In this document: positions 2,310 through 46,529 of the stretch, piece after piece
How positions within the stretch are numbered: position 1 is the first letter of the stretch
Layout of the letters: each line of letters opens with the position of its first letter
DNA from: Acholoe squamosa
Lineage: Eukaryota > Annelida > Polychaeta > Phyllodocida > Polynoidae
NCBI GenBank assembly: GCA_949317995.1
Contig: OX439038.1
Span: forward strand, 2,002,001-2,066,000
Direction of reading: 5' to 3'
Length of the DNA stretch: 64,000 nt
Position numbers and translations under genes: made by a program
Notes under the pieces: generated by a model
Told to the model about the DNA's origin: nothing
The model's input: the letters and a program-made list of their open reading frames with translations, nothing else
Database searches by the model: none

Positions 2310-2896
2310 TATGATATACCATTTTATTATTCCATAAATTGTAACATATTTTGTATTAATCAAAGGATATCTATGAAATTAATACATGGGTTGGTTCTAA
2401 GAGCTATAAGAGCGCTCAAACTTTGTATAAGAGCGTTCATGCCCCACTGCACACCAGCCAGGTCAGTTACAAACACTCTCTCTGACATCAAAGGCTCCGA
2501 CCTAATGGTTCACTGCACAATATAATAAAAATGAGGGTCTCAGTGTGCGACCTCATGGTTCAATGCACAAATTAATAACTTGTAAATGAATGCAACCGGC
2601 CGTCACGGGTGCCTGAGCACCGCTGACGCCGTCATGAGTGTCTGAGCACTCTAAGGACTGAACAATGGGTTACATAAGCACGACGCCATAACCTTCCGGT
2701 CGCTCTAGCGTCGCTCCTGAGCAACCTAGGTCAAATATCAAAATATCTATGGAAAGCCCATAATTAGACGGTCAGAATGAGCCCAAGATCAAGGCGGAAC
2801 TCTCAGTATTAAGGAAGTTACGCCATGGAGACTGAATCAACCTCCGAGTAAGCTACAGACAAACTGGCGGGAGTTACGCGCCTATCCAGCGGGCAT

Positions 2897-2902
2897 TATA
2901 AA
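2897..2902 (+). promoter_or_regulatory. Candidate TATA box in 5' LTR
   Basis: TATAAA lies downstream of GC-rich sequence (2590-2720) and about 640 bases before the AATAAA at 3536. That is the order expected for U3 promoter and R-region poly(A) signal. The same box is at 17401-17406 in the 3' LTR. Function is inferred from position only. Confidence 0.5.
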
Positions 2903-3535
2903 CTTGGCATATTCAACTCCGCGCATGCCCAAAATGGCGGTTATACAAGCATAAACGACCGAGTTATGAGGGTTTGAAGATGCAGAACCGACCAAGACAA
3001 TGGGGGCCATAGCGGCGTCCATGGGGGTCCTTTGTCCCCCTGTGACACTTGAAAGAGTCCCCTCAAACAATTGTAGAGTTAGGCAGATGCTGCTGGCTCC
3101 AGTCAGTCTGGAGGTGCTTTTCCAAGATTTGCTACAAATAGCCTGTCTGCACCTCCAGGAAGACACATCACCAAGAACCGCTCTAGAGGTAACATCTCCA
3201 GTCATCTCCTGCTACCTGCTATACCACTGCACTATGGTGAAACTATGCTAGACAGGCATTGGTTTCCTACCATTAGTGGCCAGAGGCTATCTTCTTCAAG
3301 ACTTCCACCAGAGGGTAAAGTTATCCATTATTACATTATTCCTCTAAGCAGCAGGTCAGGAGCTAGGTGTGGGAACCCACCTAGAACTATGCTGGACACT
3401 GTATTATTAATACCTCACAGGTGGAGTGGAACTGAACATTATACTTTATAAATTACTGTATGTTTACTGTATGTGCAAATTACCTACATACTAACTACTG
3501 TATGATTGATATTTCTTACATGTTGCCTAAAGCTG

Positions 3536-3541
3536 AATAAA
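3536..3541 (+). terminator. Polyadenylation signal in 5' LTR
   Basis: AATAAA in the sequence GCTGAATAAACCAG, with the matching copy at 18040-18045 in the 3' LTR. The 3' copy would end the genomic RNA. Confidence 0.6.
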
Positions 3542-3662
3542 CCAGTGACAACTGGAAATAACACTATTTATAAGAGCCTTGAGATAATTACACCATACAC
3601 CACTAGTCATATGATATTTCTCATATGACAACTTGATCATGCCAATCACTAGTATGACAAAG

Positions 3663-3677
3663 TGGTGGAGAACATCC
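3663..3677 (+). other. Primer-binding site of element 1
   Basis: TGGTGGAGAACATCC begins three bases after the 5' LTR. TGG is the complement of a tRNA CCA end. The tRNA would end TTCTCCA plus CCA; I cannot name it. The first ten bases are identical to the primer site of the TRIM at 25634. Confidence 0.65.
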
Positions 3678-3712
3678 TACTAAGATCCCATCTCTCACAG
3701 GCTCATAAAAAT

Positions 3713-3827
3713 TAAAGCTGGTAACACAACTAAGAACAATCATGCACACAGTAAGTTAAAGCTGGTACCGCAACTAAGAACAATCATGCACACAGTAAAT
3801 TAAAGCTGGTACCTCATACACACAGTA
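3713..3827 (+). repeat. Short tandem repeat in element 1 leader
   Basis: A unit of about 47 bases containing AAAGCTGGTA, CAACTAAGAACAATCATGC and ACACAGTAA occurs two and a half times between the primer site and gag. Confidence 0.75.
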
Positions 3828-3887
3828 AGACCCACTCCACCCACCCAGTGACCTTGACCTTGACACCATACCCACCAAGGTCACCAG

Positions 3888-4152
3888 TGAGATCTCCCAC
3901 ACACCAGTGAGATCTCCCACACATCAGTGAGATCTCCCACACACCAGTGAGATCTCCCACACTTCAATGAGATCTCCCACACATCAGTGAGATCTCCCAC
4001 ACATCAGTGAGATCTCCCACACACCAGTGAGATCTCCCACACATCAATGAGATCTCCCACACATCAGTGAGATCTCCCACACACCAGTGAGATCTCCCAC
4101 ACATCAGTGAGGTCTCCCACACGTCAGTGAGGTCTCCCACACGTCAGTGAGG
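3888..4152 (+). repeat. 20-bp tandem array just upstream of gag
   Basis: About 13 copies of AGTGAGATCTCCCACACATC, the last three with GAGGTCTCC and CACACGTC variants. Because 20 is not a multiple of three, TGA stops appear in every frame through the array, so the long gag frame can only open at its end. Confidence 0.9.
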
Positions 4153-4530
4153 TCCACCCCACACATCAAGGTCTTATCAGTCAAGCTGGCAGAACAACAC
4201 ACAAAGACCTTACGTAGTCAGGGGCCTGTTGAAGAGGTCTCCCTCCCACCTAGGTCTAGGAGGCCCACAGGAGGCAAACCAGCCTCCAATACAACAGACC
4301 CACACTCAGTAGACCCCACACCTCCCACCCTGTCTACTCAGGGAACAACCAGTTCTCAGGGATCCAACATTTCCCAGGGATCTCTACAGGACGCTCAACT
4401 CACGCTATCTACCTCGGGGGAAGAAGGATCTGCCTCAGGGGGTGGATCCACACCCTCATCTAGATCCTCCACCCCAGCTCCAGCCTTTGACAGCCACTCC
4501 TCCAGAGACACCTCCCCCACACCCTCCATC
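4147..4530 (+). other. AUG-less open frame in phase with gag
   Basis: 128 codons run in the gag frame from the end of the 20-bp array to the first ATG at 4531. The encoded peptide is rich in Ser, Thr and Pro. No in-frame ATG exists here, so it is either untranslated leader, an N-terminal extension from a non-AUG start, or coding after a splice. No choice can be made from the sequence. Confidence 0.5.
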
Positions 4531-6168
4531 ATGGACACCGATGAAGGCCCCCAACCTAATCAGACAGCTGAGAAGATAAGGGCCTATGAGAAGGCCATCC
4601 AAGATGCAGTTACTGCCCTAGAGACCAACAAGTCCCAGCAGGAGGAAAGGGAGAGGATCCTCAACCAACAACTGGCAGAGAGGAATGCAGCAATAGATGC
4701 TCAACAGAAGGCCATGGAAGATCAGCGGAAGTCCCTAGAGAGACAACAACAACAGATAGCAGATCTCATGAAGATGGTATCATCCCAGACCCCACAACCT
4801 CCCACACCTGCCATCACACCTGTTGTCACACCATCTGCCTCGGGATCCAAAGATGACATCATAATCTCCATGGTGTCCAACATGACCAAACTCATAGACA
4901 GAAAACAACAGGATGACAGAAAGATCAGGCTACATGAGGTAACAAAACCCAAAACCTTTTCACACCCATCACCACTCATGTCAACAGCATTATTTATTGA
5001 TCACAAATTCCCAGAATATCTGAAGGATAAGTACAAAGTGACAGACAGTGACACCATGGTAACATATTTACCCAAGTACCTCGAAGGACAAGCACTAGCT
5101 TGGTTTGAATCCTTCAGGGAGAGTGCCACACCTGATATGTTGACATGGACCAATGTAGTGGATAAATTAAAAGAGTATTTTGCTACTCGAGACAATATAA
5201 TCTCAAGGACTGCACTCCGTGCACAAAAGGTAGATGAACCTGTCCTAGACTATGCATGCCATCTCAGGAAAGTGTGTAATGCCCAACGCCAGAGTGATGA
5301 AACCCTAAGCAAGGCATTTACCCAAGGCATGAGGCCCTGGATCTCTGTAGCTCTTGAGAACAAGAAAATAGACTCTTTTGACCAAGCCCTAGACCTAGCC
5401 CTAGAGGTTGAGACCCAAGAGAGATCTAGGAAGGTGAGGGATGCAGAATCCAACCCACAGCCTACTAAGAAAAAGGTCCAGGAAATCAGCACTAGTGCAG
5501 ATGAAGATGTTAACCTAATGTCTAGTGCCCATGTAAGGCAACAGGAAGCTAAGGTTACATCAAGAGACCGTACCGGTAGATATAGAGGAAATAACTATGA
5601 CCCCAACTACCAATCCAATAGAGGTAGAGGTAGAGGGGGCAACAACAACAACCGGGGGGGTCACAACAGTAGGAAAGACAACAGCTCTTCCAACTCCAAC
5701 AATGGTAACTCTTCATACAGTGATAGGAGAGACAGAACCCCAAGTAATGGCAGATCCTATAATAATCAAGGATCCAACAGTAGGAGCCAGAGTCCACATA
5801 GGAACTACGACTCTGGATCCTACAACAACTCTGGATCCTACAACAACAGCCAGGGTTCAAACAACTCTGGATCCTATAATCAAGGATCCAACAGTAGGAG
5901 CCAGAGTCCACATAGGAACTACAACAGTGGATCCTACAACAACAATGGCGCCTACAACAACCAGAGATCCAATAACTCCGGTCAATACAGCAACTCTGGT
6001 CAATATAACCAGGGTTCCAACTCACGCCGGGAGGATTACAAACCTGACACAAGAGGTTACCAGGGGAACCAACAAAGTAACCCCCAAATACCACCTCATG
6101 TGATGGATCAAATCTCCAAACTCCTGGTGGCAAGCATCACAACCACCCCACAGAACCAGGAAAACTAG
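4531..6168 (+). CDS. gag: Gag-like structural protein of element 1
   Basis: 545 residues from the first ATG, which has A at -3 and G at +4. This is the expected capsid/nucleocapsid polyprotein that packages element RNA. An N-terminal Gln/Glu-rich coiled coil (about residues 10-80) is followed by a retrotransposon-gag type domain (about 150-300) with the landmarks YLPKYLEGQALAWFESF and LDYACHLRKVCNAQRQSDETL. The C-terminal third is a low-complexity Arg/Gly/Asn/Ser tail with RGRGG and repeated SYNNSGSYNN and GSNSRSQSPHRNY blocks. There is no CCHC zinc knuckle; the basic RG-rich tail probably replaces it, as in errantivirus-type Gags (family knowledge). It ends at TAG 6166-6168, with the protease frame already open in the -1 phase. 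Long ORFs on the other strand and in the +1 frame over the tail are composition artefacts. Confidence 0.85.
   Translation: MDTDEGPQPNQTAEKIRAYEKAIQDAVTALETNKSQQEERERILNQQLAERNAAIDAQQKAMEDQRKSLERQQQQIADLMKMVSSQTPQPPTPAITPVVTPSASGSKDDIIISMVSNMTKLIDRKQQDDRKIRLHEVTKPKTFSHPSPLMSTALFIDHKFPEYLKDKYKVTDSDTMVTYLPKYLEGQALAWFESFRESATPDMLTWTNVVDKLKEYFATRDNIISRTALRAQKVDEPVLDYACHLRKVCNAQRQSDETLSKAFTQGMRPWISVALENKKIDSFDQALDLALEVETQERSRKVRDAESNPQPTKKKVQEISTSADEDVNLMSSAHVRQQEAKVTSRDRTGRYRGNNYDPNYQSNRGRGRGGNNNNRGGHNSRKDNSSSNSNNGNSSYSDRRDRTPSNGRSYNNQGSNSRSQSPHRNYDSGSYNNSGSYNNSQGSNNSGSYNQGSNSRSQSPHRNYNSGSYNNNGAYNNQRSNNSGQYSNSGQYNQGSNSRREDYKPDTRGYQGNQQSNPQIPPHVMDQISKLLVASITTTPQNQEN
6159..6168 (+). promoter_or_regulatory. 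Candidate -1 frameshift site between gag and protease
   Basis: Gag ends in the codons GAA AAC TAG, and the heptamer G-GAA-AAC sits immediately before the stop. The protease frame (-1 relative to gag) opens at 6081 after a TAA at 6078 and stays open, giving an 88-base overlap. The heptamer is only a partial match to the X-XXY-YYZ rule, so the exact slip position is inferred. Confidence 0.4.
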
Positions 6169-6191
6169 GATGTCACAGTGCCGATGGGCCA

Positions 6192-7343
6192 GTGCACTGT
6201 GACACCCCAAATACAAACAATCAATCAGGATTAACAAAGATCCAACCAGAGACAATTGCTAGTGCAAATCTACCATCTAACAGACAGAGACGTCCATCAG
6301 TGATACACATCACCCCACCAGATTCATCATCAAAGGATACAGGTGAGAGTACCAAGCTTTCTATTGTACTTCTTCAAAATGGCTGTATCAATGCAAATCT
6401 ATATGATGTTTCAGATGTACAATGTTTGGTTGATACAGGTGCTACTATCACCTGTGTCAGACAATCATTCCTCATGGATCTCCAAAAGAGATTCCATATC
6501 CAACTGAGGAAATCTAAAATCAACATCCACTTGGCAGATGGATCGGTGTGTCATGTTAGACATTCAGCTATGCTGAACTTTAGAATCCAAGGTGTCAGAT
6601 TCCAATACCAATTTGCTGTAATACCCAACCTCACACAGCCCATTGTACTCGGCACAGATTTCTTAAGCACTACAAAATCTCAAATTGAATTTAATGTTGA
6701 TCCTGAACAAATTCTCAAACCCATTAGGGCAGTGAGGGATTTTACCATCCCTCCATTCTCTGAACTTGCAGTATTGGGTAAAGTCACATCTACTCAATCA
6801 TTGCAAGGCAAAACTGGAGTAGTAGATAACCTCCAAAGAAATAACAATGCCCCATATCTAGTTCAAAGGGCAGCAGTAACCCCCAGGGAAAATAACAAAC
6901 ATCCCCTAGTGTTACTCAACACCAGCAGGCGCCCACATAAAATCAAAAAGGGTGCCATCATAGCTCTATTTCAGGAAGTCAAGGAATCTGATTTAGAAAA
7001 ACCCCAACAGGTGTCAGACACTACCCCACACACTGATCAATCCATCTCAGCCATACGGCCTGAGGATGTAGCTCAATTCAGTGACACAGACTCAGACTGT
7101 GAGTCCACATATGCTGACCCTGAACCCAACTCAATCAGACTCTCTGAAATAGCTGCTATACATAGTGAGGCACATGACCTCGAGCCAGAATTGGAAGAGA
7201 ATGTTCCACCAAAATCTGTGCTCACATCCAAAGATCAGCATGATAGATTAGGATCACTGCTGACCAAGTATGATGATGTATTTGTAGGAAAAGATGGAGA
7301 CATTGGTGCCACACACACCTGTATACACACTCAATACATGTAA
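6192..7343 (+). CDS. pro: Aspartic protease region of element 1 (pro)
   Basis: Open frame in the -1 phase relative to gag. It has no early ATG, and the frame is open from 6081, so expression by frameshift from gag is the simplest reading. Retropepsin motifs are clear: active-site DTGA at 6432-6443 within CLVDTGATITCVRQSF, and the second motif PIVLGTDFL downstream. The enzyme would cut Gag and Gag-Pol polyproteins. The C-terminal part is an acidic linker followed by a block typical of the start of Gypsy pol, containing LLTKYDDVFVGKDGDIG. The frame ends at TAA 7341-7343, while the continuation of the pol homology is in the -1 frame. That is either a second programmed shift or a one-base mutation. 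Confidence 0.85.
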   Translation: MHCDTPNTNNQSGLTKIQPETIASANLPSNRQRRPSVIHITPPDSSSKDTGESTKLSIVLLQNGCINANLYDVSDVQCLVDTGATITCVRQSFLMDLQKRFHIQLRKSKINIHLADGSVCHVRHSAMLNFRIQGVRFQYQFAVIPNLTQPIVLGTDFLSTTKSQIEFNVDPEQILKPIRAVRDFTIPPFSELAVLGKVTSTQSLQGKTGVVDNLQRNNNAPYLVQRAAVTPRENNKHPLVLLNTSRRPHKIKKGAIIALFQEVKESDLEKPQQVSDTTPHTDQSISAIRPEDVAQFSDTDSDCESTYADPEPNSIRLSEIAAIHSEAHDLEPELEENVPPKSVLTSKDQHDRLGSLLTKYDDVFVGKDGDIGATHTCIHTQYM

Positions 7344-10300
7344 AACCTGAGGCAGTACCATGTCATTTCCTACCATATAGACAAACACCAGAAAAACAGG
7401 CCGCAATAGGGGAAGAGTGTGAAAGGCTAGTACAACAGGGCATTCTGAGAGAATGTGCTGAAGGCCCCTGGGCCTCCAGATCCTTTTTAGTACAAAAATC
7501 ATCGGGAGGCCATAGGCTCGTCACAGATTTTCGTTATTTGAACCAGAACACGATAAATCAAGCCTTATCTACACCCCGGGCCGATGACACTCTAGACATG
7601 ATAGGGTCACTCAGACCAAGAGTATTCAGTAAGCTAGATGCCCAACAGGGATTTTTTCAAATTCCTATAAGACAGGAAGATCAGCATAAAACCGCATTCA
7701 TAGCAAATGACAAAAAATATGTCTATGAAAGGATGCCGATGGGTTTAGCGACGGCACCGGCGGGATTCTGCCATCTAGTCACATTAATTCTGAACAAACT
7801 CAAGTACAAATGTGCCCTACCATACCTAGATGACATATTGGTATTATCACCATCAATCGAACAACACTTCCATGACCTGGAAGATGTATTCAACAGCCTA
7901 AGAGTTGGTAAACTCAAACTGAAGAAATCAAAATGTGAATACTTCATTGACAGAATAGACTTCTTGGGAATTAGAGTGACACCCATGGGACTGCAACCAT
8001 CTCCCACAAAGGTGGAATCAATCAAAACCTTCCCAACACCAAAATCAGTCAAAAATGTCCGATCCTTCACAGGCCTATGCCAATACTTCAAAAAGTTTAT
8101 CAAAGGTTACGCCCAAATTGCTAGACCATTATATGATCTACAGACACATCTCAAAGCATTTGTCTGGACAGAAGAGGCAGATAATGCTTTCAAAACATTA
8201 AAGCATGCCCTCTGTACCAATGCTCTTCTCAGATATCCAAACTATGAGAAAGAGTTCAGTTTGGCAACTGATGCTTCCAATGTGAGCTTAGGAGCTGTAC
8301 TCTCACAGAGAGATAATGAAGGAGTGCTCAGACCAGTAGCCTTTGCAGGTAGAACCCTCTCCAAACATGAGAGAAATTACAATACCACAGAGAGAGAACT
8401 ACTGGGAGTGGTGTATGGAGTATTACACTTCAGACACTATCTAGAGACTAGACACTTCCAATTATACACAGACCATGCAGCCCTAATCCCACTGCTAACC
8501 AATACAGGACTCACACATAGATGGGCCAGATGGGCTCTAGACATACAACAATTTTCATTCACCATCCAACACGTGAAAGGTGATGATAACACACCACCAG
8601 ATGCTATGTCTAGAAGAGAATACCCAGACTCTGGACCCATGACTAACCCTCCACCCCCACCAAGGAGAGTTAGAGCAGCCAGTAGAACCAAGTTTGCAAA
8701 AGTAACAAAGAAAGTACCATTCAAAAGGGATGATCCACCCAACACCATTGAAAGGCCAGAGACACCCATTAGGGGTATCTTGAAGCAATCTACACACTAT
8801 GTGTTTTGCCACTGTGAGAGAGAATACTCACAACTCTTTCCAGATAATGACTTCGAGCCTATCGAATTCTCATCACTCAATCAGATGCTGAAGGCAACTC
8901 CTAAGGAGCCACCCTTCACCCCACCTGACTCAGATGATGAAGATTCAGAAGACACAATATATGCTATCACTCAAGCAACTTCCAAATCAGTCAGATTCTT
9001 TGAACCGATGCAGGGAGAGGAAACATCAAACCATTTGTGTCCTATGACCACACGCTCAAAGACTAGAGAAATGATTCAGGAGGGCACACCGAAACTCCCC
9101 ACACAATCACAAACTATTCTAAATGAGAAAAAGGTCACAGGAAACAAACCTACCAAAATCCCACCTGCCAGGAAAAATGTCACAAAAGACACTGCATCTA
9201 CTAAGTCAAAGAACTCTGAGACAAAGAAGAATGACAAAAAGCAAATTGTGCCTTTAAAGAAAAAGGTTGCCACTCCCATTAAGGCGAGAATAGGCCCTCC
9301 AAAGGAACCTACACACCAAAACAAGAGTGACACACCCCAACAAAAGGCACAAGATAGGCCAATAGTCGATGAAAAAGAAAAAGAAAGAGACAGAATAAAA
9401 CAACATGTGCTAGATATAAATCAACTACTGGATCAGATTCCCGACACATCCATCTCAGGTACAAACCTTGGCTTGGAACAAAGGAAAGACAAGGACCTAT
9501 TGCCCCTCATACAATATCTTGAGGATGGAACCTTGCCTGCACCAAAAGCACAAGGAAATAGAATCATCAACCAAGGCCAGACATACACCTTGGTAAATGG
9601 TACATTAGTCCATATATGCCCCATAAATTGGAGAAAGACCAATACTGTACCACTTCAAATTGTTATACCACAGCAATGGGTAACAAGTACACTACAGTAT
9701 TTCCATGACTCACCTACCGGCGGCCATCTTGGTTCAAGTAGGATGCTGTCAGCACTCCGACCTAGGGTATATTGGAAGTCTATGCTAGCAGACACAACAA
9801 AATATGTTTCCACCTGCCACACATGCCTCACAGCAAAAAGGCAAGTACACTCACACAAAACACCAATGACAGTGAGAGAGTACATGACTTCACCAATGAA
9901 GTTCCTAAACCTAGACGCGGTGGGACCACTTCCCACAACTGCCAGGGGAAACAAACATATACAAGTCTGCATAGATTATGCTACCAGATATGCAACAGCT
10001 TGGGCTACTACTGACTTAAAAGCTGAGACAACAGCAGCAGAGTTCTACAAGAATATAATTTGTCATCATGGAACACCAGCCACTCTTCAAACAGACAATG
10101 GGACATGTTATACAGGTGCAAAGTTCACAAAGTTAACTAAACACCTCAAGATCAAACATAAATTCTCCTCACCATACAGGCCACAATCAAATGGGCTTGT
10201 AGAGAGATTCAATGCTAGCATAGGCACAGCACTCAGAGCATTCTGCTCAAAGCACCAAAACAATTGGGATTCATTTATTGAACCCATAACCTTTGCATTA

Positions 10301-10924
10301 AACAACACTGAATCCCAAACCACAGGATTCACCCCTTTCTTCCTACTCCATGGAAGAAACCCAGCCACCCCAATGGACTTAGGGCTGGGAATACAGGAAG
10401 ACATATCCACAGTAGCAGACCATGTAGCTAACATGATAACAAATCAAGATACCTCTAGGAGGAAAGCTATAGAAAGGGTCGCCAAGCTACAAAAGGAAAG
10501 GAAAGATAGATATGATAAGAAACTTACACCACAGGAAATCAAGGTCACCGACATGGTGTACCTAAACATACCAAGAATCCTGACCAACACAGAGTGTAAG
10601 AAACTTCAACCCCTTTTTATGGGACCATATGTTGTAGTAGATAGACCTAGTTTGACAAGTGCCAAACTCAAAAACTTGGACACCAATCTATTGGTGGCCA
10701 GACCAGTGCACATAGACAGACTGAAAAAGGTTGTGGCTGTCAGAAACAATGAATTTGCACACAGGCTTATTCCACATGAGGCCAAATACTACAGCAAAAT
10801 TGTAAGGAACAAAAATGATATCACCCTTACAAGAGAAACCACAGGCATAGGCCCTATCAAGCCTAGGCCTGCACACCACATACTAAGAAAGACATCTAGG
10901 TGTGGTGCAGTTTCAAGAAATTAG
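7340..10924 (+). CDS. pol: Reverse transcriptase-RNase H-integrase polyprotein of element 1
   Basis: The frame is open from 7277 with no ATG near its start, so it is probably made as a Gag-Pro-Pol fusion. RT: SKLDAQQGFFQI, then PYLDDILVL with the YLDD box at 7823-7834. RNase H: LATDASNVSLGAVLSQ, then TERELLGVVYGVLHF and YTDHAALIPLL. A Lys/Thr/Pro-rich linker of roughly 250 residues (about 8690-9450) separates RNase H from integrase, unusually long for the family. Integrase: zinc-binding H-H-C-C region with GGHLGSSRM and CHTCLTAKR, and catalytic triad Asp 9914, Asp 10094, Glu 10202, spacing D(35)E. The C-terminal module has GPYVVVDRP. No chromodomain is seen. It converts element RNA to DNA and inserts it in the genome. 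All catalytic residues are present. Confidence 0.93.
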   Translation, partial: VKPEAVPCHFLPYRQTPEKQAAIGEECERLVQQGILRECAEGPWASRSFLVQKSSGGHRLVTDFRYLNQNTINQALSTPRADDTLDMIGSLRPRVFSKLDAQQGFFQIPIRQEDQHKTAFIANDKKYVYERMPMGLATAPAGFCHLVTLILNKLKYKCALPYLDDILVLSPSIEQHFHDLEDVFNSLRVGKLKLKKSKCEYFIDRIDFLGIRVTPMGLQPSPTKVESIKTFPTPKSVKNVRSFTGLCQYFKKFIKGYAQIARPLYDLQTHLKAFVWTEEADNAFKTLKHALCTNALLRYPNYEKEFSLATDASNVSLGAVLSQRDNEGVLRPVAFAGRTLSKHERNYNTTERELLGVVYGVLHFRHYLETRHFQLYTDHAALIPLLTNTGLTHRWARWALDIQQFSFTIQHVKGDDNTPPDAMSRREYPDSGPMTNPPPPPRRVRAASRTKFAKVTKKVPFKRDDPPNTIERPETPIRGILKQSTHYVFCHCEREYSQLFPDNDFEPIEFSSLNQMLKATPKEPPFTPPDSDDEDSEDTIYAITQATSKSVRFFEPMQGEETSNHLCPMTTRSKTREMIQEGTPKLPTQSQTILNEKKVTGNKPTKIPPARKNVTKDTASTKSKNSETKKNDKKQIVPLKKKVATPIKARIGPPKEPTHQNKSDTPQQKAQDRPIVDEKEKERDRIKQHVLDINQLLDQIPDTSISGTNLGLEQRKDKDLLPLIQYLEDGTLPAPKAQGNRIINQGQTYTLVNGTLVHICPINWRKTNTVPLQIVIPQQWVTSTLQYFHDSPTGGHLGSSRMLSALRPRVYWKSMLADTTKYVSTCHTCLTAKRQVHSHKTPMTVREYMTSPMKFLNLDAVGPLPTTARGNKHIQVCIDYATRYATAWATTDLKAETTAAEFYKNIICHHGTPATLQTDNGTCYTGAKFTKLTKHLKIKHKFSSPYRPQSNGLVERFNASIGTALRAFCSKHQNNWDSFIEPITFALNNTESQTTGFTPFFLLHGRNPATPMDLGLGIQEDISTVADHVANMITNQDTSRRKAIERVAKLQKERKDRYDKKLTPQEIKVTDMVYLNIPRILTNTECKKLQPLFMGPYVVVDRPSLTSAKLKNLDTNLLVARPVHIDRLKKVVAVRNNEFAHRLIPHEAKYYSKIVRNKNDITLTRETTGIGPIKPRPAHHILRKTSRCGAVSRN

Positions 10925-11750
10925 AAACAAGATTGAGATACCAAAAGAACATAAGATTTTCAAAATGTATTACAAATTCTCTTCATCCACACATAAGACA
11001 TGTGTGACTGATAATGAATTACTATGTATATAAAGCCAATCAAATTTGTAAATATATCAGTAGGTTATTGCCTCTGAAAAGGGTCAAAGACTGGGACCCC
11101 CCAAGTAAAGCAGACATGAAGTCTAAGAAGAGTAAGGGTAACACAATGGAGTGTCTAAAGCCTAATCCCCACATGAAAGAGCGCGCTATGCCAACACAGC
11201 AGTCTATAGAGATCAATTGACCTTATAAGCTACCCTCAGACAACTGTCTAGACGGTCATGAATGGCTGTCCTGGATGACAGGAGGAGCTAATTACCAGTA
11301 CACAGACTACACAATAGATCCCACAGTTAGCAGACACTGGAGATTATGCATGGTCTCCAGAGAAACAATACCAGGCCCACAATGGATGTGGGTAGGGTAG
11401 GCTACATAAGAAGCACTGTGGACCATAGCCCACCATCAGTCTTCATCCAGCTGCAGTCTGGAACACAAGTCTACAGGACCCCACTTGGGAATTAGCCAGC
11501 CCACTTCTCCATTAGGAGAGACTGCACTAGGATAAAGAACACACCTACTTCACCTTCAACCTGACCTTACCATTTACTGGTCAACCTCTATAGACTCACT
11601 GGACATATTGCCAAGACAGCTCAATCTTGCAAAGGTACAGTTTGAACCACTTCATTTAAAGTGTTACACCATACACTTAGACTTTACCAGCACCAAATCA
11701 CTACAAATTTGACAAGACTTTAAACAGCAAACTTGCTTTACACAAGCACC
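10925..11750 (+). other. Pol-env spacer of element 1
   Basis: An 826-base stretch without a convincing gene; a 68-codon ORF (11014-11220) has no recognisable content. Env-bearing retroelements usually make env from a spliced RNA, so a splice acceptor may lie here. TTGCAAAGGTACAG ending at 11640 is one weak candidate. Confidence 0.4.
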
Positions 11751-14375
11751 ATGGGGAGACTGAGAGTTTCACCCATACTGCTAACTATGCTGTTATTATA
11801 TACTATAGAACCACTTACTGCAGGTTATACACCTGTGGTGAGACAAAACATAGGAGTAGTATTCAAACCTAGCCCTCAACCATTGGTCAATGGACATACA
11901 ACCACAACACTGTTGTTAGCTATTCCCTACAAGATACCTCGGGCACCCGTTACCCAAGGATCCATAAGGGATAGAATACTCCAGTTGACCACTCCTACTC
12001 TACAAGATCATACCTCTGGCCAAATTATCCAACAAGCTAAAGAGCTAGACACCTTGCTGGAAATTGCAGACAAGGAGATAAATGAAACACTAGCCTCCAT
12101 CAAATTGTTCTTATCCAACCCCATAAACACATTGGACAAAGCCAAAAGAGAGGCCATACTGGGTTTTCTAGCACCCCTGTTTCGCGGTGTGCTAGGGCTA
12201 GCCACAGTAGAAGATGTAAACCAAGTAATGGGACAGCTCAAGAACATAGATGAAATACTAAGAAAATTTGCTAAACAGGATCAGGAAGCAGCTAATCTCA
12301 TTGAAAGGATCACAGACAGACAAGATAAGTTTGTTAAAGCATACATCCAAGATAAGAAGGTACTGGACAGCACAATCAACACCATAGGTGACACTGTCAA
12401 CCTGTGGGCCTCTAACATGTCCAGGTCACTTGACTCATATTCAAGGCACGAGAAAACTCAAAGGGAGAAAATGCAAGTATTAAATGATGCACTAATTATC
12501 ATAGCAGCAAGAATGAATACAGTTCAATCACTGCAAAGGACAAATGCAGCCCTGAGGATGCTATCATCAGGGATCCTAACCCCTGATATAGTACCACCCT
12601 CAGACCTTGCTAGATACCTAATTGACATTAATAACAAACTTAGGATTACACACCCTGGAGCACAAGTCGCAATTAATGACTTAGATTTCTATTATTCACA
12701 GAAGCTGACCTCATACACTTACTCAGCTCACCATATATATACTCATCTGGACATTATAATACAATCTACCACCTCAACCTTCAAACTGTACCAAATGATT
12801 ACATCACCCATGCCTATAGACACACAGGAGACCCCCACCAGAGGAGTCACCAAACTACAAACCACGACTGAGTTTCTAGCAGTATCTTACGACCAATCAT
12901 TATTCATCGAATTGGACTCAGCAGATATGCAGGCATGTGAAGGTACTACAGTAAAGGTATGCAGAGATGTAAATGGTAGAATCTATAAACACAGGCCTAC
13001 ATGCCCTGTAGCCATTTTTACTAACCAGGCTCAACAGATTAAGGAACATTGCAAGTTTACAGTTTCACCACTGCAAGCACCTACCACCCATGCTATTTCC
13101 ATTTCTGAAGATGAGTATCTGGTCACTACTAATGAACCCCATTACTTTATCAACTGCCATGGTAAAACGTCTGAAACTCGGAAGGCCCAGTCCTACTCAA
13201 TCATTGGTGTACCCTGTGGGTGCACGATCAGTGTAGGAGAATTTTCTCTTCCAAACACAAGGTTGCCCTGTAACTCAACCTTATCATTTCATTACATTCT
13301 CAAGACAATTAATTTACCATTCATGGCAGCACTTAACAAAATTTCTGAAACCAAACCAGATGAAAGAGAGAATCTTCCAAATTTCCCAGTAGTAAACCTT
13401 TCTAGAACCTTAGAAAAACTACAGGAAAATCCAATCATGGATGATATTACTCAACTAAATTTAGAGCCCTTTGCTAAAACAGTATTAAAAGATGCCTCCA
13501 ACCTTAATAAGGAAATGGAAACGCGCTACGAGGAATCATACCTACGTCGAGTTACAGAGCATCCTATCTTCCAAAGCTTAGCACTCATCCTAGGGATATC
13601 AGCTCACATTTTTTTAGTATACATACTACTCAAACTGTACCGACTAGGAGGAACTGTAGCCTACCTGCCTACAGCCAAAGCATTCAGACTAGGGACCGAG
13701 CTGCCCCTACACAAATTGCTCCCAGATAAGAATCCTACCAAACTAACCCCTACAGAGGAAACCCACACCCCTTTCCTCACAATTCAGGAAACCCACACCC
13801 TGATAATTGCTATATTATTCACCCTGACCATCTACTCAGCCTACAGAATAATGAAGTACCTTAAGAAATTTGCACAGACACACTGTGGCAAGAAAAATGT
13901 GGCCAAGCGCACAAACCCCACAATATATTTTAAAATATATTGTGGAGACTCAAACTTCGCGCTACCCTTGAGGCCAATACCACATGAATTTGATGAGATT
14001 AAATCAGCAGCTGCCCCTACCTATAAGGATATAGTGGTTAAAACCTTCCCACTACCTAAGGCTATATTTACCTGGAATGGACCAGCAGTTATAACAACAC
14101 AGAGAGGAGAATTTGCTTATCACCTCCCTCAGGTGATACACCTACCTTGGCGCACTAGGTTCAGTACTATACCAGCCCTTAAAAACAAAGGACTGTACTA
14201 CTCCATGCTTCTCCAGAATGATTGTGGCACCAGCCCGGTGACCATGACAGCACTGGAAAATACAACAGATATAATTATTGACGAACAACAGGAGGAGACC
14301 GCAAGGTCAAACATGCAGACTATTGCTAATTTTCTAAACCACCAGCCCTCCCCGGTGACTGTGGAAACAGCCTAG
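11751..14375 (+). CDS. env: Env-like membrane fusion glycoprotein of element 1
   Basis: 874 residues from the ATG in CACCATGG, a strong initiation context and preferred over an ATG six codons upstream. It starts with a signal peptide (MGRLRVSPILLTMLLLY). A short N-terminal subunit ends at a basic KAKR site (about residue 133), followed by a hydrophobic stretch AILGFLAPLFRGVLGL and a long helical region. This matches the arrangement of baculovirus F and errantivirus Env proteins: short SU, furin-like site, fusion peptide, heptad repeats. Family membership is inferred from layout, not from a database match. A Cys-rich segment lies in the middle. A transmembrane segment is near residues 605-632 (SLALILGISAHIFLVYILL), and a second hydrophobic stretch is near 680-702 (LIIAILFTLTIYSAYRIM). 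The tail after them is long. The frame is uninterrupted. Whether it mediates infection between cells is unknown. Confidence 0.8.
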   Translation: MGRLRVSPILLTMLLLYTIEPLTAGYTPVVRQNIGVVFKPSPQPLVNGHTTTTLLLAIPYKIPRAPVTQGSIRDRILQLTTPTLQDHTSGQIIQQAKELDTLLEIADKEINETLASIKLFLSNPINTLDKAKREAILGFLAPLFRGVLGLATVEDVNQVMGQLKNIDEILRKFAKQDQEAANLIERITDRQDKFVKAYIQDKKVLDSTINTIGDTVNLWASNMSRSLDSYSRHEKTQREKMQVLNDALIIIAARMNTVQSLQRTNAALRMLSSGILTPDIVPPSDLARYLIDINNKLRITHPGAQVAINDLDFYYSQKLTSYTYSAHHIYTHLDIIIQSTTSTFKLYQMITSPMPIDTQETPTRGVTKLQTTTEFLAVSYDQSLFIELDSADMQACEGTTVKVCRDVNGRIYKHRPTCPVAIFTNQAQQIKEHCKFTVSPLQAPTTHAISISEDEYLVTTNEPHYFINCHGKTSETRKAQSYSIIGVPCGCTISVGEFSLPNTRLPCNSTLSFHYILKTINLPFMAALNKISETKPDERENLPNFPVVNLSRTLEKLQENPIMDDITQLNLEPFAKTVLKDASNLNKEMETRYEESYLRRVTEHPIFQSLALILGISAHIFLVYILLKLYRLGGTVAYLPTAKAFRLGTELPLHKLLPDKNPTKLTPTEETHTPFLTIQETHTLIIAILFTLTIYSAYRIMKYLKKFAQTHCGKKNVAKRTNPTIYFKIYCGDSNFALPLRPIPHEFDEIKSAAAPTYKDIVVKTFPLPKAIFTWNGPAVITTQRGEFAYHLPQVIHLPWRTRFSTIPALKNKGLYYSMLLQNDCGTSPVTMTALENTTDIIIDEQQEETARSNMQTIANFLNHQPSPVTVETA

Positions 14376-14461
14376 ACTGCCCACAGCCTAGGCTGCCCCC
14401 AGTCCACCACCAGGAGACAACACATCAGAGACAGTATTCAGAACTTTTCGGACAATTTGCC

Positions 14462-14477
14462 GGCCCTGAAAAGGGCC
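14462..14477 (-). terminator. Histone-type mRNA 3' stem-loop on the minus strand
   Basis: Read on the minus strand this is GGCCCTTTTCAGGGCC: a six-base-pair stem and the four-base loop TTTC. It is preceded by CCCAAA, matching the 5' flank of metazoan histone mRNA ends. The standard element is GGCTCTTTTCAGAGCC, so the only change is a compensated base pair. It is followed by GGCA, a plausible cleavage position, and then by a purine stretch (CGAAAAG) where the histone downstream element would lie. It sits 47 bases after the stop codon of the antisense ORF, a normal histone-gene distance. Confidence 0.6.
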
Positions 14478-14524
14478 TTTGGGATGGCGGGTTTTTACAC
14501 CCTAGGTTTCAGTCAGTCGGGATC

Positions 14525-15004
14525 CTACCACAGATCCTCGGGTTCAACATCAATGGGAGAGTCCGGGGCCGAGTCCGAGCCATACATATGGCCGTGATCC
14601 TGCTCCCACTCAGCGAGCCGGGCCTCCAGCATCCCCAGTCCATACTCGGCAGCCGTGGATGGATTCCCGGATGCCGCAAGATCGAGGAGGGATGCCGCCA
14701 ACAGATAATCCCATAGCACTCGCTCCCGCGGCCCTAGGTTATAATCCATGGGCCAGAAACCCATATTACCCAAGGCCCTAGTCAGAAGGGCCACAGTGGC
14801 CCCCCGACGCAAGGCTGAGCCCAGGAAATAATGGCAGGAGTAATTACAGACCATCACATCACCATGCTCAATGATCTCTTTGAAATTACTCACTATGTAC
14901 CCATAATGGATGGTCTGGTTAGACTCAACCAGGGCCCTAGCTGGACTCCCCACCTCCATCACCTGGGGGACAGGCAGAGCAAAGAGAGCTTGTAGGTGGG
15001 CCAT
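14525..15004 (-). CDS. Antisense accessory ORF of element 1 (unknown function)
   Basis: 159 residues on the strand opposite to gag, pol and env, between env and the 3' LTR. I chose the ATG at 15004 because its context ACCATGG is strong. The frame is open further upstream to 15220, but that part is Cys/Ser/Val-rich and has no good start. I do not recognise the protein. It begins MAHLQALFALPVPQV, has a central block IHYGYIVSNFKEIIEHGDV, a probably helical part RERVLWDYLLAASLLDL, and a very acidic end (SDSAPDSPIDVEPEDLW). No signal peptide or zinc motif is evident. The region is clearly richer in G and C than the rest of element 1. It is followed by a histone-type stem-loop on the same strand. 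It could be a captured host gene or an antisense accessory gene; a chance ORF is less likely given start context, length and 3' signal together. Confidence 0.55.
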   Translation of the reverse strand: MAHLQALFALPVPQVMEVGSPARALVESNQTIHYGYIVSNFKEIIEHGDVMVCNYSCHYFLGSALRRGATVALLTRALGNMGFWPMDYNLGPRERVLWDYLLAASLLDLAASGNPSTAAEYGLGMLEARLAEWEQDHGHMYGSDSAPDSPIDVEPEDLW

Positions 15005-15220
15005 GGTACTACAGCAGTGACTTCCAGAGAAGAACTGATGCTCCAATACCAGCCACACACTCCTTAAATGGACACACACACACCCCCCCCACCCTGAACT
15101 GTCCACTGACACCAAGCTAGGCACTGCCACAGACACATGCCAGAATCTGGCACCTAACACCTCAAGTGCCACCACTGCATGAGCACACCAGGGAGGAGAC
15201 TCACATCTCACTCCTGACAC

Positions 15221-15813
15221 ACCTCCACTGTCAATGAGATTATCAAAGTATTAGAAAAAAAAAATTATATACACAGCCACTTGTTGATGTATAATATGAA
15301 AATCTATGGTATTCTCACAAAACCGATGATTAATGCACGCATATACGCGCAAAATTGCGAAATTGCAAATTACAGATTGTAAAATTGTACAAATCTAACA
15401 TTAATATACATGAATGCAGGTAGATAACTAAGACAGTTTTTGTACCCACTAGCACTTGTATACTTACCAAGGTTTACTTAAAGTAACACACTTTAGGTAT
15501 CCAGGAAAATTGTTGGAAAAAATGAATGAAAAAAAAAAAAAAAAAAGAAAAATTGTTGAGAAAATTGTTGACATAAAACATGTTTACTTAAGATACTCAC
15601 CAAATAAATCTCTTTCAGGGACACATGCTCAAAAGGCTAGGGGAAAAGTCAATTAAGCAGCGGCCCACTGCCGAAATTGCCAATTAATACACCCATATAG
15701 CAAAATCAATGAGTAACTCAGAGACAAACAAGCCTATTGTACATGAAGTACTTTGTTTTTCCGGCCCTCGGAAAAATTTGTCTCAAATCCCATAAATTGA
15801 ATAGTGTAATCTA
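15221..15813. other. AT-rich non-coding 3' region of element 1
   Basis: No gene. It contains an A-rich run (about 15531-15548) and short direct repeats. A 66-codon ORF at 15456 is low complexity and is not called. Confidence 0.5.
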
Positions 15814-16080
15814 GATTGTACGTTTGTACCCAATTTGCACACAAAATTGTATGTTTGCACACCAGATTGTACGCTTGTACCCAATTTGCACACTAAAATT
15901 GTATGTTTGCACACCAGATTGTACGCTCGTACCCAATTTGCACACTAAAATTGTATATTTGCACACCAGATTGTACGCTTGTACCCAATTTGCACACTAA
16001 AATTGTATGTTTGCACACCAGATTGTACACTTGTACCCAATTTTGCACACGAAGATTGCATGTTTGCACACTAGATTGTA
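15814..16080 (+). repeat. 52-bp tandem repeat near 3' end of element 1
   Basis: GATTGTACGCTTGTACCC, then AATTTGCACACTAAAATTG, then TATGTTTGCACACCA recur with starts at 15814, 15865, 15917, 15969, 16021 and 16074 (periods 51-53). Confidence 0.9.
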
Positions 16081-16236
16081 AGTTGTATCCAATTTACATT
16101 TGGATTATATATTGCACATTATACTGTATGTCTGTACCCAATTCATACACTGAAGTCAGATTTTTAGAGAAATCAACATTTCTATGTGTATCCAAGCTGT
16201 ACGCAAAATTATATATGTACATACAGAAACTATCAA

Positions 16237-16440
16237 TTGAACGCAAAATTATATATTTGCATACTAAAATTGCCAAATACACGCGAAATGTACGCAAAAT
16301 TATATATTTGCACACTAAAATTGCCAAATATACGCGAAAATTATATATTTGCACACTTAAATTGCCAAATGTACGCAAAAATTATATATTTGCATACTGA
16401 AATTGTCAATTGAACGCAATTACACGCGAAATTGTAAATT
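16237..16440 (+). repeat. Second tandem repeat block near 3' end of element 1
   Basis: Degenerate units of about 40-50 bases containing TATATATTTGCACACT, AAAATTGCCAAATA and ACGCGAAAT. They resemble the 52-bp block in their GTACGC and TTTGCACACTAAAATTG words and probably derive from it. Confidence 0.8.
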
Positions 16441-16796
16441 TGCACACTGAAAATTGTCATTTATGTTCAATTTGCACGCTAAATTGAATATTGAATGCCA
16501 AAATTGCACACTATTTGCCAAATTGTATGTTGTACATAAAAATGGGAAATTGTACCCAAAATTGATGTTACATAAGCAAATAAGCTCAGGTATGGTAAGA
16601 TATAGAAACTCGGAAATGTACTTATACCCAGGAGAAAATTGTTTATACTGACAAAGCTCTACCACAAAAATTGCATTTGAAGCACTCCCCATCACTTCAA
16701 ATCCTCTTACAAAACAGTATATAACTCCAAAATAAGGTAAAAATTGTATAAATTGTACATTCCCTCGGCGAAATGACGGAGTTTCGCATTCTTTCG

Positions 16797-16808
16797 GGGG
16801 AGAGGGAG
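16797..16808 (+). other. Polypurine tract of element 1
   Basis: GGGGAGAGGGAG ends five bases before the 3' LTR as delimited by the repeats. This is the usual plus-strand primer position, although the tract is normally directly adjacent. Confidence 0.6.
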
Positions 16809-16813
16809 TATTC

Positions 16814-18163
16814 TATGATATACCATTTTATTATTCCATAAATTGTAACATATTTTGTATTAATCAAAGGATATCTATGAAATTAATACATGGGTTGGTT
16901 CTAAGAGCTATAAGAGCGCTCAAACTTTGTATAAGAGCGTTCATGCCCCACTGCACACCAGCCAGGTCAGTTACAAACACTCTCTCTGACATCAAAGGCT
17001 CCGACCTAATGGTTCACTGCACAATATAATAAAAATGAGGGTCTCAGTGTGCGACCTCATGGTTCAATGCACAAATTAATAACTTGTAAATGAATGCAAC
17101 CGGCCGTCACGGGTGCCTGAGCACCGCTGACGCCGTCATGAGTGTCTGAGCACTCTAAGGACTGAACAATGGGTTACATAAGCACGACGCCATAACCTTC
17201 CGGTCGCTCTAGCGTCGCTCCTGAGCGACCTAGGTCAAATATCAAAATATCTATGGAAAGCCCATAATTAGACGGTCAGAATGAGCCCAAGATCAAGGCG
17301 GAACTCCCAGTATTAAGGAAGTTACGCCATGGAGACTGAATCAACCTCCGAGTGAGCTACAGACAAACTGGCGGGAGTTATGCGCCTATCCAGCGGGCAT
17401 TATAAACTTGGCATATTCAACTCCGCGCATGCCCAAAATGGCGGTTATACAAGCATAAACGACCGAGTTATGAGGGTTTGAAGATGCAGAACCGACCAAG
17501 ACAATGGGGGCCATAGCGGCGTCCATGGGGGTCCTTTGTCCCCCTGTGACACTTGAAAGAGTCCCCTCAAACAATTGTAGAGTTAGGCAGATGCTGCTGG
17601 CTCCAGTCAGTCTGGAGGTGCTTTTCCAAGATTTGCTACAAATAGCCTGTCTGCACCTCCAGGAAGACACATCACCAAGAACCGCTCTAGAGGTAACATC
17701 TCCAGTCATCTCCTGCTACCTGCTATACCACTGCACTATGGTGAAACTATGCTAGACAGGCATTGGTTTCCTACCATTAGTGGCCAGAGGCTATCTTCTT
17801 CAAGACTTCCACCAGAGGGTAAAGTTATCCATTATTACATTATTCCTCTAAGCAGCAGGTCAGGAGCTAGGTGTGGGAACCCACCTAGAACTATGCTGGA
17901 CACTGTATTATTAATACCTCACAGGTGGAGTGGAACTGAACATTATACTTTATAAATTACTGTATGTTTACTGTATGTGCAAATTACCTACATACTAACT
18001 ACTGTATGATTGATATTTCTTACATGTTGCCTAAAGCTGAATAAACCAGTGACAACTGGAAATAACACTATTTATAAGAGCCTTGAGATAATTACACCAT
18101 ACACCACTAGTCATATGATATTTCTCATATGACAACTTGATCATGCCAATCACTAGTATGACA
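16814..18163 (+). repeat. 3' LTR of element 1
   Basis: Partner of 2310-3659, same length. TATAAA at 17401-17406 and AATAAA at 18040-18045. CACT at 18164-18167 is the right target duplication. Confidence 0.95.
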
Positions 18164-25262: not shown

Positions 25263-25380
25263 GCATCATGGGTAATGCACAAATAGCCAGTAAGGGTCTA
25301 AAACCTTAATAGACTGATTTACTGGATTTACAATTAAGCTGTGTCATTAGTCTGAACTGGTTGTCATTCCTTAATACAGT

Positions 25381-25632
25381 TGTAGGGGCAGTAATTCCCC
25401 GTACTTGGTGGAGATACCGAGTGGTCCCACCTTGTGAGGGGGATCTCTAGAGAGCTCAGTACCAGGTAATCACTGCCCCCTAGTGTGTGTATCATACCGA
25501 TCCAGGTGTAGTTGGAAGGTAGAGAATGTCAGGCCAGGGGAAGTAGCTCAGGGGTAGAGCTTCCGCTTCGAAGTTGGAGGGTCCCGGGTTTGAGTCCCGG
25601 TTTCTCCATGACATTTTCCACTGACCACTACA
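25381..25632 (+). repeat. 5' LTR of the TRIM
   Basis: 252 bp, TG...CA ends. Differs from 25899-26150 at two positions (around 25454 and 25458). It also holds TTGGTGGAGATACCGAG, a near-copy of the primer site, about 20 bases from its start. Confidence 0.93.
25537..25608 (+). ncRNA. tRNA-like gene inside TRIM 5' LTR
   Basis: 72 nt fold as a cloverleaf: 7-bp acceptor stem (two G-T pairs), 4-bp D stem GCTC/GAGC, anticodon stem with one mismatch and loop TTCGAAG (CGA in anticodon position, T33 present), 5-nt variable loop and a perfect 5-bp T stem CCGGG/CCCGG. The A box TAGCTCAGGGG (25544) and B box GGTTTGAGTCC (25587, one change from consensus) are in place. TTTT follows six bases after the end (25614). 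CGA would be serine, but serine tRNAs have a long variable arm, so this is not an ordinary tRNA-Ser. Confidence 0.7.
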
Positions 25633-25633
25633 T

Positions 25634-25647
25634 TGGTGGAGAAACCG
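25634..25647 (+). other. TRIM primer-binding site
   Basis: TGGTGGAGAAACCG equals TGG plus the reverse complement of CGGTTTCTCCA, the last eleven bases of the tRNA-like gene in the LTR. It begins one base after the LTR, the usual position. Confidence 0.8.
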
Positions 25648-25886
25648 AGCATCCTAACGCAATCATGGTTTGAAGGTACGGGAAGCCTGTATCTTAACGC
25701 AATCATGGATTGAGGACTCGGGAACTGGGCCGATATGATACAGATGACGCTTCGACCAATCCAGTACTTGTACCAGTACACCCACTGGGAAGTCAGGAGT
25801 GCCCCAACACTGCTTGATAAAGCCTCAACTCTCAGGTAACTGGATTGAGGGGGAATGCCGGGTGCTAGTGGATGGTGGTTGAAGCT

Positions 25887-25898
25887 GATGGGGAGGAG
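25887..25898 (+). other. TRIM polypurine tract
   Basis: GATGGGGAGGAG directly abuts the 3' LTR. It is purine except for one T. Confidence 0.8.
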
Positions 25899-26150
25899 TG
25901 TAGGGGCAGTAATTCCCCGTACTTGGTGGAGATACCGAGTGGTCCCACCTTGTGAGGGGGATCTCTAGAGACCTCGGTACCAGGTAATCACTGCCCCCTA
26001 GTGTGTGTATCATACCGATCCAGGTGTAGTTGGAAGGTAGAGAATGTCAGGCCAGGGGAAGTAGCTCAGGGGTAGAGCTTCCGCTTCGAAGTTGGAGGGT
26101 CCCGGGTTTGAGTCCCGGTTTCTCCATGACATTTTCCACTGACCACTACA
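25899..26150 (+). repeat. 3' LTR of the TRIM
   Basis: Second 252-bp repeat, followed by the CAGT duplication. Confidence 0.93.
26055..26126 (+). ncRNA. tRNA-like gene inside TRIM 3' LTR
   Basis: Identical to 25537-25608 over all 72 nt, with the same A box, B box and TTTT terminator. Confidence 0.7.
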
Positions 26151-26300
26151 CAGTTTATACATGTGAAACCCAACATACAATCCACAACATGAGTTCCTAA
26201 ACATACCCTTAGTCTGAGTATATAAGTCAGTATAACCCTCTGATATATAACTGATATGTTATATATATGGGTTTGTGTGAAGAGTAAGAGTGTTCATTAC

Positions 26301-34110: not shown

Positions 34111-35335
34111 TGTAGTGGTTCGGCTCAATAAGTTAGATTAAATCATAACGAAGAGAGAAGAAGTTTCCGGGTAGGCAACCGAGCTTTTATTGCATAAGCT
34201 TTTGTTACATACAATCACGGTCTTAACTCTTCCTTTACGGATTACACATTTATGCGTAGTTTGGGCCGAATTTGGCCGATTTCTTTACCTATTTTGAGTA
34301 TTCTATAACTTCCTCAAAATCCACTGAAAGTCTTAGATTTTTTTCATTGTTGCACATTGTGTTGGGTTCTCTATGGAGTACAAGGAATTAGTCTCTACCT
34401 CTAATACTTTTTGTATGGTAGGCTTGCAAACTTGAGATAGATTTCTGAATCACCTTAAAAGTTTTCCTTAGATTTAATTTAAGCTAAAAATCATGAAAAA
34501 CATCAAATAATATAAATTTTTGGGTGAAAATTGACTTTGTACATTTTTTTATGCTCTACAAGATGGCATTTTCAGTGTATTATCATGCATTATGAGTCAT
34601 TTGGAGTGGTTACCAAGGCAACATATATGTTGTAAATGCTGATTTTCTATAGTTTTGGTTGCTATGGTAACCAAAAAGAACATTTTCTAAATTTCATCAT
34701 TAACCAATTTTGTAATAAAATGTCGGATTTCCTACAATATGCACCTTATTTCATCACAATCGGTACAGGGAGTGTTGAGATATTACAATTTAAAGTTTGG
34801 TTGAATGATAAACTTTTCCCATTAAAACACCATGATTCTGATCCTATTTCTCATAAAATAAAGTAGCTAGAGAAACCTTGGGTGTTACTCTTTCTGATTG
34901 ACTAGCCCAGCCTAATCCATCACCATTTCCATTCTAATTGGAATATCCACATAATTCCAGCAGTTTTTGAAAGCCTATTACACCAACTATTACCCGAAAT
35001 CTGCTCTGAAATAGCCTGGTAAAGGAAGAGTTAAAGGACTACATGCTGCCAGGGCATTCGGTTACCCTTTCAGGTAACGACCAGGTTGAGCAGTGGGTAG
35101 GACCACTACTGGAGAGTATAGGGGTGGAACCACCTTTATATAGGGAAAAAGCCAGTGAAACTCAGACCGGCCATGTGACGTGTGGCGGACGAGTGGTAGG
35201 CCCCCTGGTGTAGTGGATACAAGCCCAGAGGCAGGTGCTGCCACCTTCCATCCGGATGCCCCCACTACACCCGAAGACCTAGGTCTGAGTCCCACGGGTG
35301 CATGAACGTATGAGTGTAAATACCATACCCCTACA
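34111..35335 (-). repeat. 3' LTR of element 2, interrupted
   Basis: Parts 34111-34226 and 35035-35335 together equal the 417 bp of the other LTR. A TTAA-flanked element separates them. On the minus strand AATAAA is at 34191-34186 and a TATA motif (CTATATAAAGG) near 35139. Confidence 0.93.
34227..35030. mobile_element. TTAA-specific TIR element (804 bp)
   Basis: It begins CTCTTCCTTTAC and ends GTAAAGGAAGAG, with TTAA on both sides (34223-34226, 35031-35034). The other LTR of element 2 shows the empty site with one TTAA. TTAA duplication is typical of piggyBac and Kolobok elements; no transposase is encoded, so the choice is open. A 76-codon ORF inside has no recognisable content. Confidence 0.9.
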
Positions 35336-41533: not shown

Positions 41534-41809
41534 GCCAGGCCAATAGTATCATCTGGCTAGACCTTCTAGAGACCGTTTCTTTCCAAAGTGTCCACTAGTT
41601 CTATGCCCATGACAGAAATACATAATATCTCATCGCATAGCACTGGGTATGACAACTTGCAAAGCTTTCTTCCTATTAGAATAGTTCTTCCATCAGAATA
41701 GAAGACCATCCTGGACTTCTAGCTCAGCCCATTGAGCTATGAATCATCTCATTTCCCTGTTCTCCTATGACACTTCAGGTCTTGGGGGACAGATGCCCTG
41801 ATTAAGAAA

Positions 41810-44432: not shown

Positions 44433-44470
44433 TCTGGGGGTAATCTGGTTGCCATCATGGACACCCCCTC

Positions 44471-46528: not shown

Positions 46529-46529
46529 G

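Follow-up and report, generated by a model that had tools for sequence, protein, structure and literature searches.

The 64,000-nt stretch of the scale worm Acholoe squamosa genome analysed here (the window) harbours at 25381-26150 an LTR-type element of 770 bp that is a Helenus-type TRIM by definition, Helenus having been defined as TRIMs with tRNA-derived sequence in their LTRs (Kojima 2024, PMC10886601). Judging from its sequence, the element probably, though by no means certainly, encodes the RNA that primes its own reverse transcription. It belongs to a known kind and has an apparently new property, namely a primer-binding site (PBS) that matches the element's own tRNA-like sequence. The LTRs, of 252 bp each, run from TGTAG to CTACA and differ at two positions (LTR positions 74 and 78). 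The parts of the element lie in the window as follows:

25377..25380, no strand: target-site duplication CAGT, left
25381..25632, plus strand: 5' LTR
25406..25421, plus strand: PBS-like relic TGGTGGAGATACCGAG in the 5' LTR
25525..25531, plus strand: inverted repeat arm AATGTCA, with its partner at 25609-25615, flanking the tRNA-like
25537..25608, plus strand: tRNA-like of 72 nt with alanine-type acceptor stem, 5' LTR
25614..25617, plus strand: TTTT of the 5' LTR, possible pol III terminator
25634..25647, plus strand: primer-binding site TGGTGGAGAAACCG
25890..25898, plus strand: purine tract (PPT) GGGGAGGAG, abutting the 3' LTR
25899..26150, plus strand: 3' LTR
26055..26126, plus strand: tRNA-like, 3' LTR
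26132..26135, plus strand: TTTT, 3' LTR
26151..26154, no strand: target-site duplication CAGT, right

The near-identity of the LTRs, the CAGT duplications on both sides, the primer site one base past the end of the first LTR and the purine tract directly before the second had been described in a sequence-only reading of the window, and all four stood. The length of 770 bp, the two LTRs, the PBS and the PPT are those of a TRIM, and the LTR structure and 4-bp duplications are not those of a SINE. The open-reading-frame list holds a single frame over the element, of 138 aa on the minus strand. The AATGTCA arms are supposed to be leader and trailer of a tRNA-like precursor. Directly after the PBS, a 34-nt repeat is present in two copies, 82% alike (25651-25724), as a possible packaging or dimer signal, and an 18-nt inverted repeat (83%) links 25725-25742 of the internal region with 26006-26023 of the 3' LTR.

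The tRNA-like was detected in both LTRs by ARAGORN and by Rfam RF00005, the latter with a score of 48.7 bits over the full model in either LTR; the tRNA-derived LTR sequence that characterizes Helenus is thus present. No 5S rRNA match was found up to E 5 in 25330-26200, and the hits at the Rfam gathering score were tRNA only; the 5S rRNA gene that characterizes Cassandra LTRs is absent from the element. ARAGORN labelled the tRNA-like Ser(CGA) on the basis of its anticodon. In the acceptor stem there is a G3:U70 pair, a mark of alanine tRNAs. The earlier claim of a 72-nt cloverleaf with A box, B box and TTTT terminator held in part: tRNA-like and TTTT are found in both LTRs, but box B of the window copy has decayed (GGTTTGAGTCC, the canonical box B being GGTTCGANTCC), and the cloverleaf of the unmodified RNA (-21.6 kcal/mol) is not its best fold (-28.1 kcal/mol). 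Cloverleaf stability was therefore rejected as evidence, the bare RNA preferring another fold. In addition, a C-U pair closes the anticodon stem in the window copy. The element has TTTT at 25614 and 26132 and nowhere else; depletion of TTTT was considered as a sign of pol III selection and rejected, because when the 518-bp unit was shuffled 1000 times, one TTTT or none turned up in 789 cases.

The PBS is the reverse complement of the last 11 bases of the tRNA-like plus CCA, as had been claimed, with 14/14 nt matching and base 15 differing. Among 200,000 shuffles of the internal region, none gave a 14-nt match at offsets 0-5. The LTR does not encode CCA after the tRNA-like, yet the PBS carries TGG for it, which speaks for a mature tRNA-like molecule as the pairing partner. 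This bears on a different explanation of the match, namely that the 3' end of the tRNA-like, lying in R, folds on the PBS of the same RNA and either hides it or primes from itself after cleavage. The segment 25590-25660 does form an 11-bp stem (z -2.7; one of 200 shuffles as stable), and self-priming is known for Tf1 and its relatives, as described in the available part of one source (PMC6934838). Such a fold leaves unexplained that TGG pairs with a CCA that is not encoded, TGGTGG being kept in 40/40 loci of the family described below, and the longer segment 25525-25660 prefers other pairings (z -0.3); we regard an intramolecular role as very unlikely.

The assembly searched comprises 1.48 Gb in 63 contigs, with the window on contig C4. 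Contig C63 (15,641 bp) has, within its first 3,000 bases, frames read as mitochondrial ND4L and ND4; among named sequences, this ND4 is closest to that of Eunoe nodosa (80%), with further polynoid scale worms such as Harmothoe imbricata (68%) next, whereas Pol proteins were uninformative about the host. The genome search that the sequence-only reading had proposed returned at least 43 matches to the TRIM, each over the full 770 bp and with 97-100% identity; 40 were scored among 2,519 first-look candidates, and a few matches overlap in arrays. The survey of this family (family A) covers 40 loci, the window copy included. All 40 have the layout LTR-PBS-internal-PPT-LTR, the internal region measures 266 bp in 39, exact TGGTGGAGAAACCG is kept in 36 and exact 4-bp duplications are found at 32; two loci are arrays, with three and four LTRs. 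Four C4 loci with common CAGT and flanking bases are probably segmental duplicates, so the family-A loci are not all independent insertions. LTR statistics were taken from 80 family-A LTRs, all 252 bp long, after exclusion of three that differed in length. The canonical C of box B is found in 75 and T in five, the window copy among the latter, and the weak box B of the window copy therefore represents local decay. TTTT is present in 80/80, the leader AATGTCAGGCCA in 79/80 and the intact tail CGGTTTCTCCA in 76/80. Hence, the conserved tRNA-like, the family-wide 14-base match and the LTR-type insertion, on which the sequence-only reading had made its proposal depend, were all recovered across the family. 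The same loci dispose of the idea that the unit consists of two tandem SINEs merely resembling LTRs: it would account for a tRNA-like unit occurring twice, 518 bp apart, but it is refuted by the constant layout, the nearly constant internal length and the duplications, and we give it practically no chance.

A second near-copy of the primer site inside the LTR, also claimed earlier, was found as TTGGTGGAGATACCGAG at 25405-25421; the family-A LTRs carry TTGGTGGAGATACCGAG in 52/80 and TTGGAGGAGATACCGAG in 21/80. This relic and the bases following it (25405-25475) resemble, by eye, the PBS and the start of the internal region of a second family (family B); the A LTR could have incorporated a piece of internal region from a B-like element. 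In the family B copy L073, the LTR extends from TGTAGGGG to CACTACA, with duplication ATAG, an internal region with a purine-rich end and a tRNA-like of 71 nt called Ala(TGC). Family B combines the tail CGGTGTCTCCA with the PBS TGGTGGAGACACCG, which is likewise the complement of its own tail plus CCA.

The element may, however, be primed by a host tRNA, most likely tRNA-Ala, with the LTR tRNA-like serving only as a pol III promoter and the match reflecting shared ancestry; the LTR tRNA-like would then descend from the primer tRNA or from a SINE made from that tRNA. We take this possibility seriously while doubting it. The alanine features of the tRNA-like and the Ala(TGC) call in family B are consistent with it, and published Helenus elements use host tRNAs (PMC10886601). 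An anticodon-arm pattern for host tRNA-Ala gave 214 hits in the genome and none in the control. The comparison of the LTR 3' end with host tRNAs, proposed in the sequence-only reading for all host tRNAs, was carried out with tRNA-Ala as the sole species, in 20 of the 214 pattern-matched genes: ten Ala(AGC) genes end in CGGGTTCTCCA, seven Ala(TGC) genes in CGGCATCTCCA and three Ala(CGC) genes in CGGCATCTCCA (twice) or CGGCGTCTCCA (once). Each of these tails has at least one mismatch within the 14 nt of either PBS. A fit of 13/14 nevertheless favours a host primer, whereas the fact that all three host tails mismatch both PBS while the element's own tail is perfect in 50 of 67 junctions (see below) argues against one. 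Calculated duplex energies were -26.5 kcal/mol for the own tail and -22.5 kcal/mol for the best host Ala with PBS A, and -29.0 and -25.1 kcal/mol, respectively, with PBS B. Separately, a dense array of host tRNA-Ala(AGC)-type matches was seen on one strand at C12:51451327-51477176, with a spacing of mostly 288 to 515 bases; it contains at least 71 tRNA-Ala matches, among the matches listed, one copy being locus L144.

The relation between PBS and own tail was followed in 120 loci (L005-L044, L065-L124 and L145-L164; L001-L004, the contig ends L045-L064 and the host tRNA loci L125-L144 lie outside this set). These hold 189 tRNA-like LTR ends, of which 90 are not followed by PBS-like sequence and are 3' LTRs, solo LTRs or decayed LTRs. 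Collapsing identical contexts left 67 distinct LTR/PBS junctions; other junction patterns gave 67 uncollapsed, 59, and 24, the last pattern being too narrow. Since the junction pattern captures only PBS that contain TGG and GAG, conservation of those bases was judged from the 40-locus survey. The own tail matches 14/14 in 50 of the 67 junctions and, set against the best of the three host tRNA-Ala tails, fits better in 58, equally in nine and worse in none, distributed as follows:

Group A, 21 junctions: 14/14 in 17, better than host in 20
Group B, 30 junctions: 14/14 in 21, better than host in 22
GCA-loop group, 8 junctions: 14/14 in 7, better than host in 8
CGA-loop group, 8 junctions: 14/14 in 5, better than host in 8

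Moreover, at the PBS position that tells the families apart, 66/67 junctions show the base expected from their own tail. The one junction that deviates is in L082, a mixed array in which the matching tail sits on the next LTR; on the reverse strand, at about 640-1206, this locus shows a B-type LTR, an internal region with an A-type PBS and then an LTR of the GCA-loop group. The covariation is that of one column in a few related families and does not amount to 67 independent events. That the PBS shifts together with the own tail from family to family speaks against a host primer. The sequence-only reading had offered both a self-supplied primer and formation of the LTR by capture of the primer tRNA; as the PBS also fits its own tail no worse, and mostly better, than the host tRNA-Ala tails examined, continued use seems likelier than a single capture event.

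Locus L077 stands out from the other junctions: here the PBS equals the own tail for 18 nt (1/67 junctions), reading CCGGGATGG where three compared copies read CCGAGTGG, and L077 is one base longer. Reverse transcriptase is established, for retroviruses, to copy 18 tRNA bases before the blocked base 58. The 18-nt copy carries the family-B-specific base, which is at odds with a host primer, and the closest host tail (CGC) would mismatch this PBS at position 11. TGG lies within the 18-nt match, again contrary to an intramolecular fold. We read this footprint, in a single element, as the likely trace of a cycle primed by a B tRNA-like.

The two further groups were recovered with a pattern that combines tail CGGTTTCTCCA with a trailer not starting with T and with a nearby TTTT, which gave 2,516 ends in the genome and none in the control; they have either a GCA loop or a CGA loop with other trailers. 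All 20 ends examined of these 2,516, including one with an odd-looking trailer, are TRIM-type LTR ends, which counts against a host primer, and PBS-like sequence adjoins the LTR in 17 of them and is absent in three. Additionally, the genome was searched for tRNAs with Rfam, which yielded 97,417 first-look candidates, far above the usual number of tRNA genes, and 63 scored hits, all 63 being type-B TRIM LTR ends, one of them inside L093. From this scored subset of the candidates, tRNA-bearing mobile elements seem to make up a large part of the genome.

A possible source of the missing enzymes lies in the same window:

2310..18163, plus strand: Gypsy1, autonomous-type element with LTRs at 2310-3659 and 16814-18163 and CACT duplications

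Gypsy1 encodes Ty3-type gag, protease, RT-RNase H and integrase. Its PBS, TGGTGGAGAAC at 3663, matches host tRNA-Ala(AGC) over 11 nt, and its first 10 bases are also those of the TRIM PBS; this relatedness is in keeping with a host primer for the TRIM as well. Like the TRIM, Gypsy1 has a 4-bp duplication; no LTR sequence common to the two was seen. A Gypsy1-type element primed by tRNA-Ala would be a sensible candidate helper, and such a link might explain why the TRIM primers keep their UCUCCA end. Gypsy1 further contains, after the integrase and in the place of an envelope gene, an 883-aa frame (11724-14375) with no Pfam match. A second Gypsy-type element occupies 35023-46953 on the minus strand; its pol is spread over several frames, and its LTR opens with TGTAGGGG, as do the TRIM LTRs. 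By eye, neither a PBS nor a clean duplication was recognised in it. It was rejected as a helper, the first 8 LTR bases alone being common with the TRIM. Apart from these elements, the window contains long tandem arrays at 54185-59553 (units of about 58-60 bases) and 51844-53133 (about 45 bases).

Taken together, we somewhat favour the view that this lineage encodes its own tRNA-like primer, written into its PBS, that the two co-evolve in several families and that these elements have been freed from host tRNAs while borrowing reverse transcriptase and integrase. In the cycle that we propose, pol III would start at the tRNA-like of the 5' LTR, and a stop at the first TTTT would yield a short tRNA-like precursor, which host enzymes would trim after the discriminator base and supply with CCA. 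Readthrough to the TTTT of the 3' LTR would give a genomic RNA of about 0.6 kb in which the tRNA-like forms the repeated R region. The short RNA would pair with the PBS over 14 nt and prime the minus strand, reverse transcriptase being supplied in trans by a Gypsy-type element whose integrase would leave the 4-bp duplications. During plus-strand synthesis the 3' end of the primer would be copied, so that the PBS would be rewritten from whichever RNA had primed; because of this rewriting, PBS and LTR tRNA-like would stay matched as the families diverge. Several observations speak against a self-supplied primer: the own match ends at 14 nt in 49/67 junctions, where a fresh primer copy would measure about 18; the 13/14 fit of host tRNA-Ala may suffice to prime; the bare RNA has a more stable fold than the cloverleaf; the anticodon stem of the window copy closes with C-U; and TTTT is not depleted.

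The scale-worm element resembles published Helenus elements in its length below 1000 bp, the A and B boxes in the LTR, the PBS and PPT, the 4-bp duplications seen in animals, the tandem arrays and the supposed dependence on Gypsy elements (PMC10886601). The hosts given in Table 1 of that study include no annelid. There, the LTR tRNA-like and the PBS were found not to be complementary, and the former was concluded to be of no help to initiation (PMC10886601), whereas the element described here shows complementarity of 14/14 in 50/67 junctions, with covariation between families. Our finding thus runs against the 2024 general statement on Helenus. Cassandra is likewise small and non-autonomous, with a pol III gene in the LTR and long tandem arrays, as far as the available parts of the sources go (PMC7215508, PMC10886601); it differs in carrying 5S rRNA, and its PBS, TGGTATCAGAGC, is not described in the available part of one of them as fitting its own small RNA (PMC7215508). 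The biv-TRIM of bivalves is also an animal TRIM with solo and tandem copies, but has no unambiguous PBS, and an LTR tRNA-like is not mentioned in the available text (PMC6934838). Among the papers listed from the open-licence PMC literature on Helenus/TRIMp3 or on own primers, no report of self-supplied priming was found. An engineered counterpart does exist: Lund et al. in 1997 reportedly complemented a PBS-impaired MLV vector with a tRNA-like primer made for it. There too the primer would be a tRNA-like RNA fitted to the PBS, as proposed here, but it was man-made and supplied in trans, whereas the gene for the scale-worm primer would belong to a natural element. As to relatives elsewhere, pattern searches found one phage contig with tRNA-Ala and otherwise nothing in viral contigs, three bacterial contigs, taken as chance, in genome contigs, and none in plasmids; a protein-based scan confirmed none.

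Priming in LTR elements and retroviruses is thought to require either a host tRNA or self-folding, the latter being the case in Tf1. For genomes such as this one, the abundance of tRNA-bearing LTRs means that tRNA gene counts can be swamped by transposons. If the proposed reading is true, an own tRNA-like primer would constitute a third way of priming, and mutations in its own primer gene would be the means by which such an element alters its primer specificity.
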